A stretch of DNA of 64,000 nt from Fidelibacterota bacterium. Its GTDB lineage: Bacteria; Fidelibacterota; UBA8477; JABMPR01. Made by a program: the position numbers and the translations under genes. The notes below the pieces were generated by a model that ran no database searches, was not told the DNA's origin, and was given only the letters and a program-made list of their open reading frames with translations. Numbering within the stretch: the first letter of the stretch is position 1; each line of letters opens with the position of its first letter. Shown one piece after another: positions 8,156 through 16,895 of this stretch. The stretch is taken from positions 62,001 to 126,000 of the forward strand of contig JADHVL010000010.1 of NCBI GenBank assembly GCA_016784025.1, written 5' to 3'.

Positions 8156-8184
8156 GGGAGGACAGTCCGGGCGGACTGCCTCCC
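8156..8184. terminator. Hairpin between convergent upp and the motor operon
   Basis: GGGAGGACAGTCC pairs with GGACTGCCTCCC across a four-base GGGC loop, with one bulged A. It lies between two converging transcription units. Neither side has a good T-tract, so termination in either direction is plausible but not certain. Confidence 0.45.
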
Positions 8185-8231
8185 CTCCTATCTCGCTAGT
8201 GCAGGACAGCGGAGATATCTTCATCAGCTAA

Positions 8232-9161
8232 CTACTCGATAAAGTCGGCCTCGGCGAACTCCTCGATACTGAAATCATTTTCTGGATCAGCGTCCATTTG
8301 TAGGATGAATTCCACAACCTTTTTTTGTGCTCCCTCTACCTGCTTGCGAGAAACGGGTCCCTCTTTGGGTTCATACATGGCCTGCTTCTTTTGAGGCAGG
8401 TTCTCTACAACCCTATCGGTTAATTCCTGATCCTGCCCCTTAAGTGCCAGGGCAATATCATCGATATCAAGACTGTTAAATACATCTCTGAGAATGTTTT
8501 CCGGGAGCATGGGCACATTTTCAAAGGTGAAGTGATGTTTTTTCACTTCCTTGGCCAACTCAGGATCTTCCTGGGAGAGATAATCAAGAAATTGTCGTTG
8601 TTCTTTGGCATCCATGGTTCCCAATAGACCTGCCATCGCTTTACCGCCACCTTCTGAATATTCGGCTTGAGATGGAATCTGCTTGGCTTTTTCACGATAT
8701 TCTGAAGCAACTTCTAGAACAGCTTCCAATGGAACGTCCTTAATCTTTCCAAGATCAACCATGGCTTCGGTACGAATTTCAGTGGGAAGCCTCATTAGGA
8801 GGCGACCTTGCATTTCTGTAGGAATTTGGGCCAGGAGTATGGAAATCGAACGAGTTGGTTCTGATCGAATCAAATATGCGAGATGAACTTCTGACATACC
8901 CTCAAGAAAAGCAAAGGGTTGAGAGGTTGCATCCTTGGCATCTGCTGCAAATTTCTTGGACATAAAGGAGAAATAGAACTCCTCCAGCACCATCTTCTTA
9001 AATTCAAAGTGTATGTTTTTGATCTGAGGTACACGCTGGCGGACCGTAATGATTTCCTGATCCGTTAAATTGGGGAACAACTGTCCCGCAAGACGTGCTC
9101 CCAATATATCAAAAAGAATTGCGGCTTTATCAATACCGGCTAGTTTTTTTTGAGTAGCCAT
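8232..9161 (-). CDS. FliG-like motor switch protein in a non-flagellar operon
   Basis: A 309-residue protein that aligns by eye with all three FliG domains. The N domain (about 5-70) starts LAGIDKAAILFDILG, as in FliF-binding FliG. The middle domain (about 84-165) has FAFLEGMSEVHLAYLIRSEP, with SEPTR where FliG has EHPQ. The C domain (about 175-300) has DPELAKEVKKHHFTFENVPM, DDIALALKGQDQELTDRVVEN and GPVSRKQVEGAQKKVVEFIL. FliG (usually about 335 residues) transmits torque from MotA to the FliF ring. Here the charged stretch normally written RDDLEALG before GPVR is replaced by a short YEPKE. The ATG overlaps the FliF-like stop (TAATG), implying translational coupling. It is the last gene of the operon. 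Confidence 0.85.
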   Translation of the reverse strand: MATQKKLAGIDKAAILFDILGARLAGQLFPNLTDQEIITVRQRVPQIKNIHFEFKKMVLEEFYFSFMSKKFAADAKDATSQPFAFLEGMSEVHLAYLIRSEPTRSISILLAQIPTEMQGRLLMRLPTEIRTEAMVDLGKIKDVPLEAVLEVASEYREKAKQIPSQAEYSEGGGKAMAGLLGTMDAKEQRQFLDYLSQEDPELAKEVKKHHFTFENVPMLPENILRDVFNSLDIDDIALALKGQDQELTDRVVENLPQKKQAMYEPKEGPVSRKQVEGAQKKVVEFILQMDADPENDFSIEEFAEADFIE

Positions 9162-11050
9162 TATTTTTGCCCCTTCTTTTTCTTTTTACCATTCGATTTT
9201 TCTTCTTCCTCAGTCTCTTCTTCTTCCTCTTCTGCTTCGCCAGTATCCTGTAGCCAGTCCTTCACAATGCTGGAGGCTGAACCAGGCTTACTTACCGCCA
9301 GGGAGACAACTGATTTCTTAATGCTATCCACTTCATCCAGCAACTCTGGATCAACGGCCGGCTCAGGGATGAGGTCTTCTTCAGGCTCTGTCACAACTTC
9401 AGGAGTTGGTTCCGGTTCAACTGGTGCCTGAGCCATGTCCTGTGATGGAGGTAAATCTGGAGCCTGACGACGGCCACCCATCAGGGCGCCGATAATCACG
9501 GCCAATCCCACCAGTACAGCGGCACCAATAATGAAAAGCCACAGGAGATCATCTTCATCCTCAGGCAGCATGGTGGCCTGGAGTCTCTGGTTCTCAAGAT
9601 CATCCATTTGCTGTTTGAGTCTATCTTCACGATCTTTGATTGCTGATTTTTCTGCTTCTCTACGTTTTTGCTCAAGCTCAAGTTTCAGACGCTGCTCTTC
9701 TTCCAGATCCACAGCTGATAATTGATCTTTGAGATCCTCAAGTTGTTCAGAGAGCAGGGCTAACCTCAAGGAATCCTGACGTAAGCGATCCTGGGCTTGT
9801 TCCTGCTGGGCTTCAAATAATTGTCGACGTTCTTCGGCCAAACGGTTTTCTTCCTGCTCGCGCAAGTCTCTTAATTCATTCTCGCGTTGGCGAATCCGTT
9901 CTTCCTCTTGAATACGTAGTTGTGCCAACTCAGCATCATGTTCTTTCTGTTTATCAGCCTCTTCCTGTCGGATACGGGCCATTTCAGCATCACGAGCCTC
10001 TTTATTGGCCTGATCCAGTTTCATCCGCTCTTGCTGACTTTCTAAATCTTTGATGCGCTTGTTTTCAGTTTCTTCTTTCTGCCGGGCTTCAATTGCTGTC
10101 ATTTTTTCAGCAATGGATTTAAGAAGAAGTTGTTCCGTGTCAGGCTTGTCTTTAGTGGTGCCCTGGAAATCAGCAGTCATAACCTGTAATTTGTCACCAC
10201 GCTCCCTGTTGAAATGGGCAGCAACCATGGTTACGGTGCGAATGTTTTCAATAATCTGAGGGGAGATAGGATCTTCCAGAATAACGGTTAGCTCCATTTT
10301 GTTAACCCGCAGGCTTGGACCACTCGTGCTGGCGACTGTGTGGCGGGATAATTTTGCATTACCACTTTCAGAATAGCTCACCAGGTTCTGATCGGCGGTG
10401 TTTTCTGTGACGCTTTGAATGTCTTCTTCCAGGATGACTTCATTTTCTTCCAGTGAAAGATTTGCCTCGGCAGCGACTTCAGTTTGAGTGGTATCAGGGA
10501 TTTCAGCTACTTCATCCAGATCTTCAGCAGCAGCATAAACAACGTCTTCATTGGTGTCTTCTTCTACAGGAACTTCTTCTTCGTATAATTCAAAACCAGG
10601 TGATTGAATTCCAGGGAATCCAGGGATATCAGATGGTACATCAGTTTTAATGGGGCGCTTTTTGAGAACGGTACGGGTTTTTTTCACACTTGGATCATCA
10701 GTGGTTTCAGTTGCTGATTGACTCATACCTGGCGTTTTGCTAAGAGATTGCTTAAATATTTCTTGCTCGGGGCTGACCTTCCCTTTTTTAGATCCTGGTG
10801 CTTCATAAACAGTTGTATATTTTTGAGTTGGTGTTGCTTCCATGACAATATTTACATTCACAATGAAATTCTCATGGCGTAAAATGCGATAAACAGCATC
10901 ACTTACTCTTTGATGAATGGTATTCTCCAGCAGAATCTTTTGGGAGAGCACCTCTTTATTGGTGTCCGGTAAAGCGAACACCTGAGAGATCAACATCAGT
11001 GAGGTAATGATACCGCCTGTTATGATGTGTTTAAATGCTGGATACTTCAT
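9161..11050 (-). CDS. FliF-derived ring protein with signal peptide, coiled coil and FliG-binding-like tail
   Basis: A 629-residue protein. A signal peptide (1-26) is followed at about 36-72 by a segment like the first half of the FliF ring-building domain (TIHQRVSDAVYRILRHENFI, then VNVNIVME). A long acidic, probably disordered insert spans about 85-235. The second half of that domain lies at about 236-295 (MELTVILEDPISPQIIENIR, then FNRERGDKLQVMTADF, matching FliF's AxG-x-ERGD-x-V motif). A charged coiled coil covers about 305-495, one membrane helix about 501-524, and an acidic tail ends in a Lys run. Within the tail, residues 581-602 (VVSLAVSKPGSASSIVKDWL) resemble the FliF C-terminal motif that holds FliG. 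The N-terminal FliF domains and first membrane helix are missing. Confidence 0.75.
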   Translation of the reverse strand: MKYPAFKHIITGGIITSLMLISQVFALPDTNKEVLSQKILLENTIHQRVSDAVYRILRHENFIVNVNIVMEATPTQKYTTVYEAPGSKKGKVSPEQEIFKQSLSKTPGMSQSATETTDDPSVKKTRTVLKKRPIKTDVPSDIPGFPGIQSPGFELYEEEVPVEEDTNEDVVYAAAEDLDEVAEIPDTTQTEVAAEANLSLEENEVILEEDIQSVTENTADQNLVSYSESGNAKLSRHTVASTSGPSLRVNKMELTVILEDPISPQIIENIRTVTMVAAHFNRERGDKLQVMTADFQGTTKDKPDTEQLLLKSIAEKMTAIEARQKEETENKRIKDLESQQERMKLDQANKEARDAEMARIRQEEADKQKEHDAELAQLRIQEEERIRQRENELRDLREQEENRLAEERRQLFEAQQEQAQDRLRQDSLRLALLSEQLEDLKDQLSAVDLEEEQRLKLELEQKRREAEKSAIKDREDRLKQQMDDLENQRLQATMLPEDEDDLLWLFIIGAAVLVGLAVIIGALMGGRRQAPDLPPSQDMAQAPVEPEPTPEVVTEPEEDLIPEPAVDPELLDEVDSIKKSVVSLAVSKPGSASSIVKDWLQDTGEAEEEEEETEEEEKSNGKKKKKGQK

Positions 11051-11082
11051 AAGCTTCTCCTCGTTTCTAGCGTCAGCCTTAA

Positions 11083-11724
11083 TTAGCCGATCGTTAGAAA
11101 TGTTATATCAACGCGTCTGTTCTTCGCTTTATTCGCTGGGGTGTCGTTTGCTACGATCGGTACAGTATCGCCAAAACCGATGGCTCGGAATTTGTCAGCA
11201 TGAATTCCCTGACTGGTTAAATACCGAATCACTGCACTGGCTCTAGCTGCTGATAGCTCCCAGTTTGAAGGAAACTGACTCGACCGGATTGGGTCATTGT
11301 CTGTGTGTCCCTCTACTGCAATGGCATAAGTTGCCTTTTCCATGGTGCTTACCAGTTTCACGAGAAATGACTTGATGGGTCCTGAAAGTGTAGCAGTTCC
11401 TGAACCAAAAGCTAGATCGCTGGCGATTCCCAGTGTAACCCCTCGGGCATCCATAGAAACTTTAACCTGACTCTGAAGCTCCTGCTCCACCACTAATTTT
11501 TTAACTTCTTTATTGATCTGACTCAAGGAAACCTTTTTGCTTTTCTTCTTGGATCCTTGTTTCTTTTGAGTTGAATCACCGAATTGCTCCAGCTTGACTG
11601 GATCCAGGGTGGACATGGCGAAAAGGAGCACAAAGAAAGTCATGAGTAGGGTCATCATGTCAGCATAGGTGGTCAGCCAGCCGCCCTCGTCCTGTTGCTG
11701 TTTCTTTTTTGGTGCCATTGCCAT
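11083..11724 (-). CDS. motB: MotB-like stator subunit with OmpA peptidoglycan-binding domain
   Basis: A 213-residue MotB family protein, shorter than E. coli MotB (308). The N terminus is cytoplasmic and Lys/Gln-rich. One membrane helix starts at YADMMTLLMTFFVLLFAMS with the proton- or sodium-carrying Asp at residue 22. A short linker leads to an OmpA/MotB domain (about 100-213) with the peptidoglycan-binding signature VEGHTDNDPI, NWELSAARA and KNRRVDI. In the family it forms the ion channel with MotA and anchors it to the wall. It follows motA by 6 bases and precedes the FliF-like gene by 32. Confidence 0.92.
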   Translation of the reverse strand: MAMAPKKKQQQDEGGWLTTYADMMTLLMTFFVLLFAMSTLDPVKLEQFGDSTQKKQGSKKKSKKVSLSQINKEVKKLVVEQELQSQVKVSMDARGVTLGIASDLAFGSGTATLSGPIKSFLVKLVSTMEKATYAIAVEGHTDNDPIRSSQFPSNWELSAARASAVIRYLTSQGIHADKFRAIGFGDTVPIVANDTPANKAKNRRVDITFLTIG

Positions 11725-11730
11725 TTTTTA

Positions 11731-12537
11731 TTAGTCCTCGTAAACCCTGTCACGTGGGGCAAGATATGAGTTCAAGAATTCTCTAACCAGAATGGGATGC
11801 TTTTTGACCTTGAGCATCACAACCCCATCAATAATCATATTTTGAGTAATATTTCGTTTGTCTATTCGAGAACGCAGTTTCGCTGCAACAGGCAAAAAGA
11901 AAAGGTTGGCAAAGAGGGCGCCATAAAAGGTGGTAATCAGGGCAACACCCATGGATTGTCCAAGTTTTGCTGCTGGATCGTCATTTCCGCCACTACCATC
12001 AGAGGGAGCACCCATGGCAAAAAGCATGGCAACTAGACCCACCAGGGTTCCAACCATACCAAATGCAGGTGAGAAAACACCCATGGTCTTGAATACATTT
12101 GCTTCGGCATCTTCACGAAGTTCTCGATTGACAACACGGGTTTCCATAATGTTGCGGATATCTTCTTCAGGTAGACCATCAACAATCATCTGAACGCCGT
12201 CTTTCATAAACCAATCTTTAATACCATCTGTAGCCTTTTCAAGATCTGCAGTACCCTTTCGGGCAACAGCAGCCAGTTCCACTAATTCACGAAGTGTATC
12301 ACTATCATTGTGAGTATCACCCTTGAAAACAGCCCAGAGGTTGGTATACAGGGAAAGTACCTCTTTAACAGGGAAGGCCATGGCTGTGGCAGCAATAGTA
12401 CCACCCAGCACAATCATGAGAGATTGGACATCCACAAAGGTCATCACACCGTTTGGGAGAACTTGAGATACTTCAAATACAGCGTATCCGATCAAGCCTG
12501 AACCGAATAATAATCCTATAATGGTTGCAAAATCCAT
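11731..12537 (-). CDS. motA: MotA-like stator ion-channel subunit
   Basis: A 268-residue MotA family protein of normal length, with four membrane helices at about 2-20, 38-56, 155-175 and 195-218. A large cytoplasmic loop lies between helices 2 and 3, with charged residues (VVNRELREDAEANVF) where MotA contacts FliG. The conserved third-helix motif is AFGMVGTLVGLVAMLFAMG. It belongs to the true MotA group rather than ExbB/TolQ, judging by the N-terminal helix pair and loop. Its partner MotB follows directly, and a FliG-like protein is encoded in the same operon, so both halves of a rotary contact are present. Confidence 0.92.
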   Translation of the reverse strand: MDFATIIGLLFGSGLIGYAVFEVSQVLPNGVMTFVDVQSLMIVLGGTIAATAMAFPVKEVLSLYTNLWAVFKGDTHNDSDTLRELVELAAVARKGTADLEKATDGIKDWFMKDGVQMIVDGLPEEDIRNIMETRVVNRELREDAEANVFKTMGVFSPAFGMVGTLVGLVAMLFAMGAPSDGSGGNDDPAAKLGQSMGVALITTFYGALFANLFFLPVAAKLRSRIDKRNITQNMIIDGVVMLKVKKHPILVREFLNSYLAPRDRVYED

Positions 12538-12555
12538 ATGCTAATCCTTTTCCTG

Positions 12556-13923
12556 TTAATCCCTTGCAGAAACGGCTGAACGCAACCGATTCTCGTTTAA
12601 AGCACGCAGGATATTACGTACTTCGTCGTATCCGGGGTCGATCTGAAGTGCAATATTCCAATTAATGGTTGCTCTGTCGATCTGATTAAGCTTGTAATAG
12701 ATGGACCCACGTCTGGCATATGCTAAAGCCAGATTTGGATTGTATTCCAAAGCTTCGTTGATCTCAATCAGCGCATCATCGTATTCTTCATTATAGAAAA
12801 GTCGCAATGAACGTGAGAGGTGTTTCAAAGCCTGGTTGATCTGGGCATCGGAAACGTGGCGCGCCAATTGGAGAGAGGCCACTGAATCTGCCAAAACCTG
12901 ATTTCGTTGTTCAAGATGCTCTACCATACGATTAAGGTGCTCAATCTCCGCACTTGACATTCTGAGGGAATCCCTCAGAACCAGCAATTGACGCTCCTGA
13001 GCTTTGTGCCAGCTGGAGTCAATCACCGTTCGCATGGGTAAGCCATCTTCAGTAACAACGCCTGAAACCTTGATCCCACCACGCTGTTTGCTGGCTGCAG
13101 ATCTGACGCGGGGTAGAAAATAATCTAGTCCGATTCCTATACCAGGTGGGTTCTCACGATCCTCACCGAGATAGGGTAAATTTTGCATGTTGGAGAAACC
13201 GACATTGATGTGGTATTCATGAGTTAAAGGTACTTTCACTCCAGCATTGATACCCACACCATCCCACTCAATAATAAAATCAAGGCCACCACGATCAGCC
13301 ATGATGTTGGTGTTTAATAATAACCCTAAAAAGAAACCAATACTGTTGGCCTTGGCAATCTTGATTGTATCGCCAGGAGTGGTGGTTGTATCCAGATCAA
13401 ATTTGCCAAAATTGGATCCATAACGTCCAGAACCAATACCCAGATAGGTTTTGAGGTTATACTCAGAAAAACTGTTCTCACGACTGAGCAGCATATAGTA
13501 GGAAAGATTACGAACCTTCTCTTCAAGATCAGTAGAATCTGAAGCTGCACTGGTAACGCTGATATCATTCACTCCAATTCCCACAGCCGTTTCACCATAA
13601 GTCAACAGGCGGTTTTGAATATGTAAGGCAATATCATTTTCATTGGCGGCCGAACCAGATTGTATGGCGGAGAGACCCAGTCTGAAATCACGGGTAATAT
13701 CCGTTTCCAGAAAGGCACCCTTGTTCCAATAATCGGTTTCAAAAGCACCACGGGTGGATTGACCGGCAACACCAATACGCAATAAATAGGATTCATTATA
13801 TAGACTGGAAGTTGGAATATGCATCATTGGTCCAGGCCTTGAATAATTCAGGGTCGTTTGACCGAAAACTGATATGCTTGATGCAACGATAACTAAAATC
13901 AGTATATGTTTTAATGTTTTCAT
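12556..13923 (-). CDS. Outer-membrane barrel-like protein with C-terminal TPR domain
   Basis: A 455-residue protein with a signal peptide (about 1-21, ending VFGQ). A beta-strand-rich region at about 25-270 resembles PorV/OmpA-type barrels (alternating hydrophobics such as LLRIGVAGQS and DFRLGLSAIQSG). A predicted helix or coiled coil at about 305-355 follows (LRDSLRMSSAEIEHLNRMVE). TPR repeats cover about 360-450 (FYNEEYDDALIEINEALEYN, AYARRGSIYYKLNQIDRATI). I infer an outer-membrane protein whose periplasmic TPR end could hold other members of this operon. It lies 18 bases upstream of motA on the same strand. No exact family name is claimed. Confidence 0.6.
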   Translation of the reverse strand: MKTLKHILILVIVASSISVFGQTTLNYSRPGPMMHIPTSSLYNESYLLRIGVAGQSTRGAFETDYWNKGAFLETDITRDFRLGLSAIQSGSAANENDIALHIQNRLLTYGETAVGIGVNDISVTSAASDSTDLEEKVRNLSYYMLLSRENSFSEYNLKTYLGIGSGRYGSNFGKFDLDTTTTPGDTIKIAKANSIGFFLGLLLNTNIMADRGGLDFIIEWDGVGINAGVKVPLTHEYHINVGFSNMQNLPYLGEDRENPPGIGIGLDYFLPRVRSAASKQRGGIKVSGVVTEDGLPMRTVIDSSWHKAQERQLLVLRDSLRMSSAEIEHLNRMVEHLEQRNQVLADSVASLQLARHVSDAQINQALKHLSRSLRLFYNEEYDDALIEINEALEYNPNLALAYARRGSIYYKLNQIDRATINWNIALQIDPGYDEVRNILRALNENRLRSAVSARD

Positions 13924-13957
13924 ATGATGATCTCCAGGATCAGCCTCTCATCTCGTA

Positions 13958-14824
13958 TCATTCCTGCACAAATCGTCTGGCCAGGGTCAAATATTCACTG
14001 CCGGGGTGACGGGAGACCAGCTCTTGAAAAGCAAGCTTGGCTTCCGGAAGACGATCCTTGTTTTTAAAGGCCAGACCGATCATTACCAGGGCATCGTCCT
14101 GTTTGTCAGAATTCTCGAAGCGCTGCACCTGTTCAAGGGCGCTAATCGCTTCATCATAAAGTCCTTTTTCAAAATAACAGCGACCTACCCAATACTGGGC
14201 ATTCGCACGCATGGTCACATCAACACCGCCTTGAACGATGTTGTTAAAATCTTCAATGGCCTGGTAATAAAGTTCCTGGTGATACTTTGTGAGTCCACTT
14301 CTGTAGGCGGCCTGTTCTTCACGTTCACTTAATTTCGGACCAGAATATGGTTGATTGATAGGTGCTGTCGTTACAGTCGCATGCTTCCAGGGAGTATGCA
14401 ATTCAGCAAACACGCTATCTGATGTCTGGCTTTCACCAGGTACAAAAACTGGCGTCCTCCGGGCATTTTCCTGTTGACCCACCAGGCTGGTAATGCGGGT
14501 GCTCAGTAAGGCGCGATCCGTTTCCCCGGCGGCCTTAATCTGGGCAATCTCAGACTGCAGACTATCAATCACAGTTGTCTGATATCTCAAACGAATTTCT
14601 GTTTCAGCTAATTTGTGCTGATAGCGATTTAATTCTTCTTCAAGCTCCATTTGCTGCCCTAATAATTCTGGAGAATCATTGATCTCCCCATCTATATCAG
14701 GACTTGTCTGGGTGCTATCATCTATTCTCAAACCAATATCATAGAATAGAGATCCCGTTTGACCATATGCAGTCAATCCAAGAAGGAGAATAATCGGAGT
14801 GATATATGTGAGATACGACTTCAT
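13958..14824 (-). CDS. Periplasmic YbgF/CpoB-like coiled-coil TPR protein
   Basis: A 288-residue protein with a signal peptide (about 1-22, ending TAYGQ). A coiled coil at about 50-115 (GQQMELEEELNRYQHKLAET) is followed by three Tol-Pal YbgF-type TPR repeats at about 170-285 (YYQAIEDFNNIVQGG, ANAQYWVGRCYFEKGLYDEA, PEAKLAFQELVSRHPGSEYL). YbgF/CpoB proteins couple envelope constriction with peptidoglycan synthesis by trimerising through the coiled coil. Here the gene sits among motor genes rather than tol-pal genes. It is separated by 4 bases from the next upstream gene, which has the same architecture, so the two are probably paralogues. Confidence 0.7.
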   Translation of the reverse strand: MKSYLTYITPIILLLGLTAYGQTGSLFYDIGLRIDDSTQTSPDIDGEINDSPELLGQQMELEEELNRYQHKLAETEIRLRYQTTVIDSLQSEIAQIKAAGETDRALLSTRITSLVGQQENARRTPVFVPGESQTSDSVFAELHTPWKHATVTTAPINQPYSGPKLSEREEQAAYRSGLTKYHQELYYQAIEDFNNIVQGGVDVTMRANAQYWVGRCYFEKGLYDEAISALEQVQRFENSDKQDDALVMIGLAFKNKDRLPEAKLAFQELVSRHPGSEYLTLARRFVQE

Positions 14825-14828
14825 AGAT

Positions 14829-15806
14829 CTAGTTCTGACGATTTCCTTTTAAGAAGTCCCTGGCCTGGTTTGCCAGTTCACTGTCCGGGTATTCATTGAG
14901 AAATCGTTCCATGTGTTCTCGGGCTTTCAAATAGCGACCGAGCTGCTGATAGCTGATGGCAATTTTGAAAAGAGCATGATCACTTTTATTGTTTTCTTCA
15001 AAATTGAAAACCTTCTCAAACTCAGTCACAGCAGATTCATAATCTTCCAAGGAGTAATAGCATTCACCAATCCAGTATTGTGCATTGTCAGCGTAGGCGC
15101 CCGTAGGTTCACGCTGGATAAGGATCCGGAAATCCTGAATGGCCTCAAGAAAATCATTATTGAAATAGTTGTTGAGAGCGTCATTATAGGCCATGCGATA
15201 ATCCGCATTAAATTTATAACCGCGAGTTTTGGAGGGAGTGACAACAGCTGCAACGGGTTTCTCAACCGCCGGAGGAGCTTCTGCCACACGAAGCGTAGTC
15301 TTCACTTTTACTGGTTCAGGTTTGACTTTAACGGGCGCTGGCTTGGTGGTTACTGATTCCATAACGACACCAGCATGGGTTTCCAGGGCAAGTTGCTCGA
15401 TCTGTATTTCCAGAGAGTCATTTAAGAGCAATAGATTTTTCATACCCTCTTTCAGGGAATCAATTTCCCGAATCAGGACATAAATATTTCCTCTCAGATT
15501 GATGATATCTGGATCACGGGGAGTGGCTACTACTTCAATAACAGGTTGCTCAGCTTTTTCATCTAATTTGGTTTGATAGACGGCTATTTGTGTATCCATG
15601 GCAGCGATACTGGCTTTGAGAAGTTCAACTTCTTCACGGGATTCGCGGAGCTTGACCACCTCTGCAGAAAGTGCCTTCATCTGGGATTGCATCTTCATCT
15701 GCTCAATATTAGGAGCGGATGTGGCTGGCTCTTTTGGCGTACAGGCCATTAGTCCCAGAAGGGTTGCCAGAGAAAGGGATAATATGAGTGAGCGTTTAGA
15801 TATCAT
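14829..15806 (-). CDS. Lipoprotein with coiled coil and YbgF-like TPR domain
   Basis: A 325-residue lipoprotein. The signal peptide ends at a lipobox with Cys 22 (LLGLMAC), so the mature protein is lipid-anchored. A coiled coil covers about 35-150, a Pro/Val/Lys-rich linker about 155-190, and YbgF-type TPRs about 205-322 (FLEAIQDFRILIQREPTGAY, NAQYWIGECYYSLEDYESAV). It looks like a lipid-anchored paralogue of the downstream protein at 13958. The start overlaps the preceding lipoprotein gene by 11 bases. Its likely role is a structural link between outer membrane and motor complex, by inference. Confidence 0.7.
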   Translation of the reverse strand: MISKRSLILSLSLATLLGLMACTPKEPATSAPNIEQMKMQSQMKALSAEVVKLRESREEVELLKASIAAMDTQIAVYQTKLDEKAEQPVIEVVATPRDPDIINLRGNIYVLIREIDSLKEGMKNLLLLNDSLEIQIEQLALETHAGVVMESVTTKPAPVKVKPEPVKVKTTLRVAEAPPAVEKPVAAVVTPSKTRGYKFNADYRMAYNDALNNYFNNDFLEAIQDFRILIQREPTGAYADNAQYWIGECYYSLEDYESAVTEFEKVFNFEENNKSDHALFKIAISYQQLGRYLKAREHMERFLNEYPDSELANQARDFLKGNRQN

Positions 15807-16791
15807 GCTCTTCCCAATCGAGTGAATAACTATATCCTATAAAAGAGCCAAATGAATTTGGCACATAAAGTTCAAATTCGCCACTGGCACCAGGGAAAAG
15901 AGAGGTGTCAGTATTAACACCGCTGGAGAATACATGGTGGGAACCTTTGACAAAAGCCGTCAGCTCTCGTGTATCACCACTCCAGTTAATTCTGAAAAGA
16001 AAATTCACTTTGACAAAGTCTGCGCGGCGACCACCAATATTTTTTACCACTCCAGAAAGAATGGTATTTCCTGTGCGATCCTTGCGCTCTTTGATGCTGC
16101 CAGATAAAACGACGTTACCTGTGTATTTGCTATCCCGTGTATCGCCCTTGACATCCTGGGTTCCGGTCATATTAGCACGATCACCATTAATATTCATGGG
16201 AGCGCCACCACGTGCGCCATCAACGGCTGAAACTGCAGGAGCATCATCAGATGTAGGGATATTATCGACAATACGTAAGACTTGATCGCGGGAGACAGAA
16301 AGCACACCGATAAGCGTTTTGACCTGGATATTATCCTTGTCCTGATCAATGACATCACCAAATAGCTTGGTGCCATTCTCTAAATGTACTTCCTTACTAT
16401 ATATACTTAAGGGGTTGGTCCAGACTTCACTCTGAGTTTGAAGTTCGGTTAATTTCTTTTTTACATATTTTAATTCAGCAGCCAGACGTTTGACTTCATA
16501 GTTGATCTCGCTAGTGACAAAATCAGCAGACTCGCCAGAATCCGGTTTTTTATTTCTTAGTTGATCAAGATTATAGATCAGATTATCAGCTTTTTCACCA
16601 CTCTGCCAGGCAGATTCATCAGTGCCCTGAGCATCTACACCTGCAGATTCAGCACGATTTGTTGAGTCCCCTCGTGCTGACGATTTGTCCCAGGACTCTT
16701 CTTCCGGTTTTGATTTTCCACCGAACATTGAGCACTGTACAAATGTCAGGGTTAGCGCCAATAACAGTACTTGTAAGCTGTATCGCTTCAT
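15796..16791 (-). CDS. Lipoprotein, first gene of the motor operon
   Basis: The frame opens at 16815, but the ATG at 16791 is better. AGAGG lies 8 bases upstream, and the product starts with a lipoprotein signal (MKRYSLQVLLLALTLTFVQC). The 331-residue product has a polar linker, a short coiled coil at about 85-125 (EINYEVKRLAAELKYVKKKL) and a small beta domain at about 130-170 (HLENGTKLFGDVIDQDKDNI). Its C-terminal beta-sandwich resembles FxLYD/DUF3426-type domains (ILSGVVKNIGGRRADFVKVN). I do not recognise a named family. Its place at the head of the operon suggests an outer-membrane-anchored component. Confidence 0.6.
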   Translation of the reverse strand: MKRYSLQVLLLALTLTFVQCSMFGGKSKPEEESWDKSSARGDSTNRAESAGVDAQGTDESAWQSGEKADNLIYNLDQLRNKKPDSGESADFVTSEINYEVKRLAAELKYVKKKLTELQTQSEVWTNPLSIYSKEVHLENGTKLFGDVIDQDKDNIQVKTLIGVLSVSRDQVLRIVDNIPTSDDAPAVSAVDGARGGAPMNINGDRANMTGTQDVKGDTRDSKYTGNVVLSGSIKERKDRTGNTILSGVVKNIGGRRADFVKVNFLFRINWSGDTRELTAFVKGSHHVFSSGVNTDTSLFPGASGEFELYVPNSFGSFIGYSYSLDWEEHDI

Positions 16792-16859
16792 ACGCAGCCT
16801 CTTCCGACTTAACATCGCTTCCAGTTTTATGCGGAGTGTAACCTGTCCTGCACCGCATT

Positions 16860-16895
16860 CGTAAAGAATTTAGGGGGTTATTAAAATCTTGTCAA
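16860..16895 (-). promoter_or_regulatory. Probable sigma-70-type promoter of the motor operon
   Basis: On the minus strand there is a perfect -35 box TTGACA (16895-16890), a 17-base spacer and a -10 box TAAATT (16872-16867, four of six matches). Transcription would begin near 16860, leaving a leader of about 70 bases before the ATG at 16791. No flagellar sigma-28 type box is apparent. Confidence 0.5.

Follow-up and report, generated by a model that had tools for sequence, protein, structure and literature searches.

What might a stator, a rotor protein and a ring protein of the flagellar type be doing in an operon that carries no genes for a rod, hook or filament? The question is raised by a stretch of 64,000 nucleotides (referred to here as the window) from a member of Candidatus Neomarinimicrobiota (SAR406/Fidelibacterota), a marine phylum of which 245 genomes were surveyed in this work. 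The genome that contains the window is 3.52 Mb in size, is held in 47 contigs and is 86% complete.

Organization of the operon

Eight tightly packed ORFs were located on the minus strand at positions 8232–16815, with gaps of no more than 34 bases and two overlaps, which confirmed the eight-gene, one-strand operon described in an earlier note on this DNA. In the order of transcription from the promoter they encode a lipoprotein, YbgF-1, YbgF-2, a barrel+TPR protein, MotA, MotB, a relative of FliF and FliG. The features of the locus, with the evidence for each, are the following:

8156–8184, minus strand: strong terminator-like hairpin (RNA fold)
8232–9161, minus strand: FliG-like rotor protein, 309 aa (Pfam FliG_N/M/C, T. 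maritima FliG 1lkv, column conservation, tree)
9161–11050, minus strand: FliF-like ring protein, 629 aa (hhalign, Pfam YscJ_FliF_C in orthologues, PDB profile search, AF2/Foldseek, tail motif)
11083–11724, minus strand: MotB-type stator subunit, 213 aa (Pfam MotB_plug and OmpA, invariant residues)
11731–12537, minus strand: MotA-type stator subunit, 268 aa (Pfam MotA_ExbB, NCBIfam PomA/MotP as best match, columns, tree)
12556–13923, minus strand: outer-membrane beta-barrel and TPR protein (AF2 model, Foldseek, alignment)
13958–14824, minus strand: YbgF/CpoB-like protein 2, with signal peptide, coil and TPRs (NCBIfam tol_pal_ybgF, E 1.6e-18, below the curated cut-off)
14829–15806, minus strand: YbgF/CpoB-like protein 1, with lipobox LMAC (NCBIfam tol_pal_ybgF, E 2.7e-22, below the curated cut-off)
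15796–16815, minus strand: phylum-conserved lipoprotein, with lipobox FVQC (family alignment with 37 invariant columns, phylum search)
16867–16895, minus strand: sigma-70-like promoter match TTGACA-17-TAAATT (pattern scan)

The hairpin, positioned between the end of the operon and the convergent upp gene, has a folding energy of −36 kcal/mol and a z value of −4.24, and none of 200 shuffles folded as well; it is thus as real as had been claimed. The single promoter that had also been proposed fared less well. No match in the region scored better in the pattern scan, but promoter-type matches exceeded the shuffle expectation only modestly (22 found against 14.3 ± 4.6), and for this reason the promoter constitutes weak evidence.

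Conserved and changed residues in FliG and the stator

The window FliG scored above the Pfam cut-offs for all three of its domains (FliG_N 48.8, FliG_M 31.1 and FliG_C 84.2 bits), and a profile search of the PDB agreed with this three-domain assignment, the nearest solved structures being flagellar FliGs (T. maritima 1lkv, E 2e-26). The identification of MotA and MotB was equally borne out, by strong Pfam matches to MotA_ExbB, MotB_plug and OmpA.

EHPQ is the FliM-binding motif of FliG; it is conserved at 95–100% in the flagellar FliG of the phylum, whereas it is degenerate in the operon FliG. Among the other FliG positions, K241 is 100% conserved, the R281 equivalent is mostly Lys, the counterparts of D288/D289 and R297 of E. 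coli are changed, and new conserved Glu residues are present at E264 and E267. Contact pairs of MotA R90/E98 with FliG have been described (PMC7564593). Residues R93, E100, P157 and P216 of the operon MotA are 100% conserved, as are the channel residue D22 of MotB and its peptidoglycan-binding D142, N154-W-E-L and R161 (92 operon sequences). This pattern of conservation suggests a stator–rotor pair that would be active and would have no direction switch.

A FliF relative reduced to RBM3, TM2 and tail

When the FliF relative was aligned with flagellar FliF by hhalign, colinear matches (E 3.8e-6 and 5.6e-4) covered RBM3, in both of its halves, as well as the FliG-binding helix at the C-terminus. 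Residues 1–230 of flagellar FliF, which comprise TM1, RBM1 and RBM2, had no profile–profile match in the operon protein, and RBM3 begins at approximately residue 37 in the latter as compared with residue 237 in flagellar FliF. The domains of the protein are (i) an N-terminal signal/TM helix, (ii) the two RBM3 halves at residues 35–88 and 238–297, with long collar strands, (iii) a coiled coil at about 308–493, (iv) a TM segment at 500–524 and (v) a FliG-binding tail at 572–601. The YscJ_FliF_C family was just missed by the window protein (22.2 bits against a cut-off of 23.8) and was matched by 45 of 47 orthologues, with a best E value of 1.8e-15. FliF sequences also occupied the top four places in a PDB-wide profile search, none of them aligned over the N-terminal RBM1/RBM2 part, and the first 15 Foldseek matches to the AF2 model were all FliF structures. 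In this model, a single chain like all of our AF2 models and of low global confidence at full length (pTM 0.29), a helix is followed by long strands at residues 62–82 and 234–259, a helix and a strand, corresponding to RBM3 with its collar strands; the C-terminal part displays the coiled coil, the TM segment and two tail helices.

The stretch between RBM3 and the TM segment measures 45–210 residues (median 179), compared with 22–28 in flagellar FliF; in one lineage (L037) the coil is only 45 residues, hence a long stalk is not universal. The FliG-binding tail motif was recovered in 80 of 83 orthologues as against 15 of 4150 shuffled tails. As judged from these profile and fold comparisons, the FliF relative is reduced to the RBM3/beta-collar, TM2 and the FliG-binding tail, having lost RBM1 and RBM2 and gained a long coiled coil. 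The description of the protein as FliF-derived therefore stands for homology, with the reservation that only these three parts are retained, and the Pfam, PDB, profile–profile and fold searches together place neither this protein nor FliG in an unrelated family. In flagella, RBM1 and RBM2 surround the export gate, and a FliF relative that has lost them is consistent with the lack of export genes.

Envelope proteins of the operon

The lipoprotein, the two YbgF/CpoB-like proteins and the barrel+TPR protein that had been read from the sequence were all present. An AF2 model of the barrel protein (mean pLDDT 75) contains about 12 strands, a 75-residue helix and a C-terminal TPR domain, and its Foldseek matches were FapF, NanC, KdgM, a designed 12-strand barrel and TPR proteins. 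No Pfam family was matched by the window lipoprotein; some members of its family carry an extra CarboxypepD_reg-like domain at the N-terminus.

The operon is separate from true flagellar genes

A search of the window genome, 86% complete, yielded no match to FlhA (PF00771) or to the FliM/FliN C-domain (FliMN_C) and no second FliG_C, the operon copy being the only one. Since PF00771 also represents the SctV/FlhA-family export gate, the gate of a type III injectisome was likewise not detected in this genome, and Pfam revealed no rod, hook or filament genes among the operon proteins. The claim that no flagellar or type III secretion set accompanies these genes was upheld on each of these counts, and, as far as these markers show, no set making use of the operon genes was found elsewhere in the window genome. 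The genome encodes three MotA/ExbB proteins, namely the operon MotA, the MotA of a MotA-MotB-MotB cluster and one of the ExbB type that has ExbD- and TonB-like neighbours.

In 20 flagellated relatives, a flagellar cluster was found with its own FliF (518–550 aa) and its own FliG, and 16 of the 20 also had their own flagellar MotAB; in flagellated relatives the operon is thus accompanied by a flagellar set that is complete and distinct from it. The operon FliG (41 sequences) formed a single clade with 100/100 support, the opposite side of the tree being occupied by the phylum's flagellar FliG together with those of Thermotoga, Helicobacter and Aquifex; long branches join at the operon/flagellar split, which makes its depth uncertain. 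The operon MotA was also a single clade (100/100).

Distribution and conservation in the phylum

FliG_C was detected in 172 of the 245 genomes and FlhA, above cut-off, in 42. The operon itself was counted in about 164 genomes from a strong match to the lipoprotein profile (E < 1e-30, a threshold set by us that excludes weak secondary matches), 33 of them with FlhA and 131 without. Considering the best 80 of 138 matches to the barrel profile, the named ones in species genomes belonged to Candidatus Neomarinimicrobiota/Marinimicrobia or to FCB-group bacteria. Three lineages with otherwise near-complete genomes (f5/g7, f14/g17 and f13/g16) have no operon, and some lineages, f5/g7 for example, have neither operon nor FliG; because of the lineages without it, the function of the operon cannot be an essential one.

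The gene order (lipoprotein, YbgF genes, barrel, MotA, MotB, FliF, FliG) was kept in nearly all of approximately 100 loci and recurs in genomes without FlhA. The exceptions were loci in which one or both YbgF genes are missing, YbgF-2 among them, as happens in part of the phylum, loci truncated by the end of a contig, and L048, a single locus in which the lipoprotein, YbgF and barrel genes lie apart from the remainder. Pairwise dN/dS values within the genus, for all genes with unsaturated dS, ranged from 0.013 to 0.124. Conserved order combined with such low values excludes both chance and decay.

Outside the operon, neighbouring genes showed lineage-specific synteny only, apart from a small TPR lipoprotein encoded just upstream on the same strand in L049 (17870–18445) and in about 36 other loci, roughly one-third of the total; this gene may be a lineage-specific ninth member of the operon. 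A further observation concerns the MotA-MotB pair. One locus of the genus (L057) shares 95–99% identity with the window over FliG, FliF, barrel and lipoprotein, and only 79% and 60% over MotA and MotB, respectively. Its MotAB (11387–12819; window counterpart 11083–12537) is 91–92% identical to that of L064 (4325–5757). These identities suggest an exchange between members of the genus that was confined to MotA and MotB.

Comparison with known systems

With the flagellar motor, the operon shares a homologous stator, including its stator and peptidoglycan-anchor residues, a three-domain FliG, and the RBM3 fold and FliG-binding tail of FliF. It differs in encoding neither an export apparatus nor FliM/FliN, and no rod, hook or filament (FlhA and FliMN_C being absent from the whole window genome), in a FliF without RBM1/RBM2 whose TM2 is preceded by a coiled coil, in the loss of EHPQ, and in the addition of an outer-membrane barrel, a lipoprotein and CpoB-like proteins.

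The AglRQS-Glt system of Myxococcus similarly joins a MotAB-type motor to periplasmic TPR and outer-membrane proteins. AglRQS consists of one MotA and two MotB homologues and has no FliG or FliF, whereas the operon has a single MotB plus FliG and a FliF-type ring protein; one of the operon YbgF-like proteins matches GltC weakly, through its TPRs only. GldLM/PorLM, of type IX secretion (T9SS) and Bacteroidota gliding, is likewise a PMF-driven motor of the 5:2 type linked to an outer-membrane complex, but GldL and GldM have no clear sequence homology to MotAB and work without FliG/FliF. The statement that known non-flagellar relatives of MotAB lack FliG and FliF is upheld for AglRQS and GldLM, and we know of no other non-flagellar MotAB-type machine with a FliG–FliF rotor (reviewed in PMC9389320).

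Tol-Pal resembles the operon in its MotA/TolQ-family motor, peptidoglycan-binding OmpA domain, lipoprotein and, by matches below the curated cut-off, CpoB/YbgF-like TPR proteins; in contrast to Tol-Pal, the operon is of the MotA/MotB rather than the TolQ/TolR type, includes FliG and the FliF-like protein and has no TolA/TolB. TolB_N was absent from the window genome, undetected in 82 of 99 near-complete genomes and weakly matched in the other 17. Zorya (ZorAB) is another MotAB-type motor outside the flagellum, from which the operon is distinguished by the lack of Zorya effector genes and the presence of FliG/FliF-like ring proteins. An assignment to Zorya was rejected, as the operon MotA had no PADLOC (ZorA) match and only MotB matched ZorB models.

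Discussion

We consider it probable that the operon encodes an ion-driven rotor–stator machine that has its basis in the flagellar motor core and does not serve a flagellum. This agrees with the earlier proposal of a rotary or linear machine without a flagellum; the roles suggested alongside it, namely gliding, cargo transport and cell constriction, stay conjectural. In the mechanism we envisage, MotA5MotB2 units anchored to the peptidoglycan would push a ring of FliG held on the tails of the FliF-like protein, and the FliF-like ring would turn one way only, because FliM/FliN are missing and the FliM site is lost. By way of the coiled coil, the RBM3 ring would reach into the periplasm and act there on a complex of barrel, lipoprotein and CpoB-like proteins at the outer membrane. 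That a ring would form, turn and be coupled to the outer membrane is what we infer from the parts encoded. By analogy with Tol-Pal, the output would most likely be mechanical work on the envelope, which is favored by the failure to detect TolB in most near-complete genomes and by the CpoB-like proteins; this is the weakest part of the proposal and is offered with modest confidence.

The nearest alternative output would be movement of the barrel complex at the surface, the rotor carrying an adhesin or the barrel complex along the cell to produce gliding. MotAB relatives do drive gliding in Myxococcus, where AglRQS acts with TPR/barrel Glt proteins, and GldLM does so in Bacteroidota (PMC9389320); the operon also supplies barrel, lipoprotein and TPR parts. 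However, it encodes no adhesin, occurs in numerous SAR406 MAGs and single-cell genomes of small size, and is carried by the probable genome of the cultured Fidelibacter, a reportedly non-motile organism (PMC11652737), and we judge a gliding motor to be rather unlikely. That the operon replaces GldLM as the motor of T9SS and energizes SprA-dependent export is a suggestion we find doubtful. SprA was detected in 97 and sorting tails in all of 99 near-complete genomes of the phylum, often with dozens of tails each, whereas GldM, searched with one Bacteroidota model, was found in a single one of the 99 and not in the window genome; the sole positive contig has GldK/L/N-like neighbors and Flavobacteria-like sequence, and is possibly a contaminant. 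What disfavors this reading is that operon-free genomes (G013, G014, G034 and f14/g17) also have SprA and sorting tails, with one ExbB-type protein only, and a second MotA-MotB-MotB cluster adjoining PorU in the window genome competes for the role.

A static or signaling scaffold, for example a periplasm-to-cytoplasm sensor that does not rotate, would be compatible with the changes at some canonical torque charges of FliG, but the complete conservation of the channel Asp, the MotA Arg, Glu and prolines and the MotB peptidoglycan motif would be difficult to account for if no ion-driven work were done on FliG, and makes a scaffold quite improbable. We give very little credence to a relic or spare part kept, or decaying, after loss of the flagellum. 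In its favor, each of the four core proteins has flagellar homologues, and flagella are missing from most carriers. Yet the operon co-occurs with FlhA in 33 genomes and with full flagella, forms deep clades of its own, has an invariant gene order that includes non-flagellar genes, and evolves under purifying selection. On these phylogenetic and substitution data, taken with the separate flagellar set in relatives, the operon is not a flagellar remnant, and the relic explanation was rejected.

The ion-driven machine may be stated more fully as a new rotary machine in which MotAB would turn a FliG/FliF(RBM3) rotor that has no part in export, and in which a coiled coil in the periplasm would transmit the torque to a barrel complex of the outer membrane; inherited largely vertically throughout the phylum, it would descend from the flagellar motor core along a line other than that of the flagellum. 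We put the chances of this complete version at about even. The modules are familiar; what we do not know from the literature is their combination, the reduction of FliF and the presence of outer-membrane partners. No paper on a FliG–FliF–MotAB machine outside flagella in this phylum was found in the open-licence literature, where absence is not proof. The operon, conserved across a widespread ocean phylum whose examined genomes mostly have no FlhA, offers a natural case of rotor and stator genes kept without a secretion system, and it bears on whether the motor and export modules were separable when flagella arose.

One genome holding the full operon (G003) probably belongs to Fidelibacter multiformis, which would make this species a cultured carrier and render biochemical and cryo-ET tests feasible. 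Strain IA91 has a genome of 2.79 Mbp with 45.6% GC, and the cell shape of the species depends on exogenous muropeptides (PMC11652737).

Other motor and T9SS genes

T9SS markers are near-universal in this phylum, outside Bacteroidota, despite the near-absence of GldM. The operon-free lineages f14/g17 (genomes of 0.7–1.0 Mb) and f5/g7 have retained SprA together with T9SS tails and a single ExbB-type protein. The second cluster of the window genome, on contig 8 at approximately 105440–111642 (L140:9341–15543), lies directly upstream of the sortase PorU (NF033707, E 1e-203). As a candidate T9SS motor it was rejected, the linkage to PorU being confined to the window genome among the loci examined; the same MotA-MotB-MotB set, of AglR/Q/S-like make-up, recurs in G003 and G006 without an adjoining PorU. 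On contig 41 of the window genome (L141:7214–10319), the ExbB-type gene is followed in a row by two ExbD-like and two TonB-like genes.
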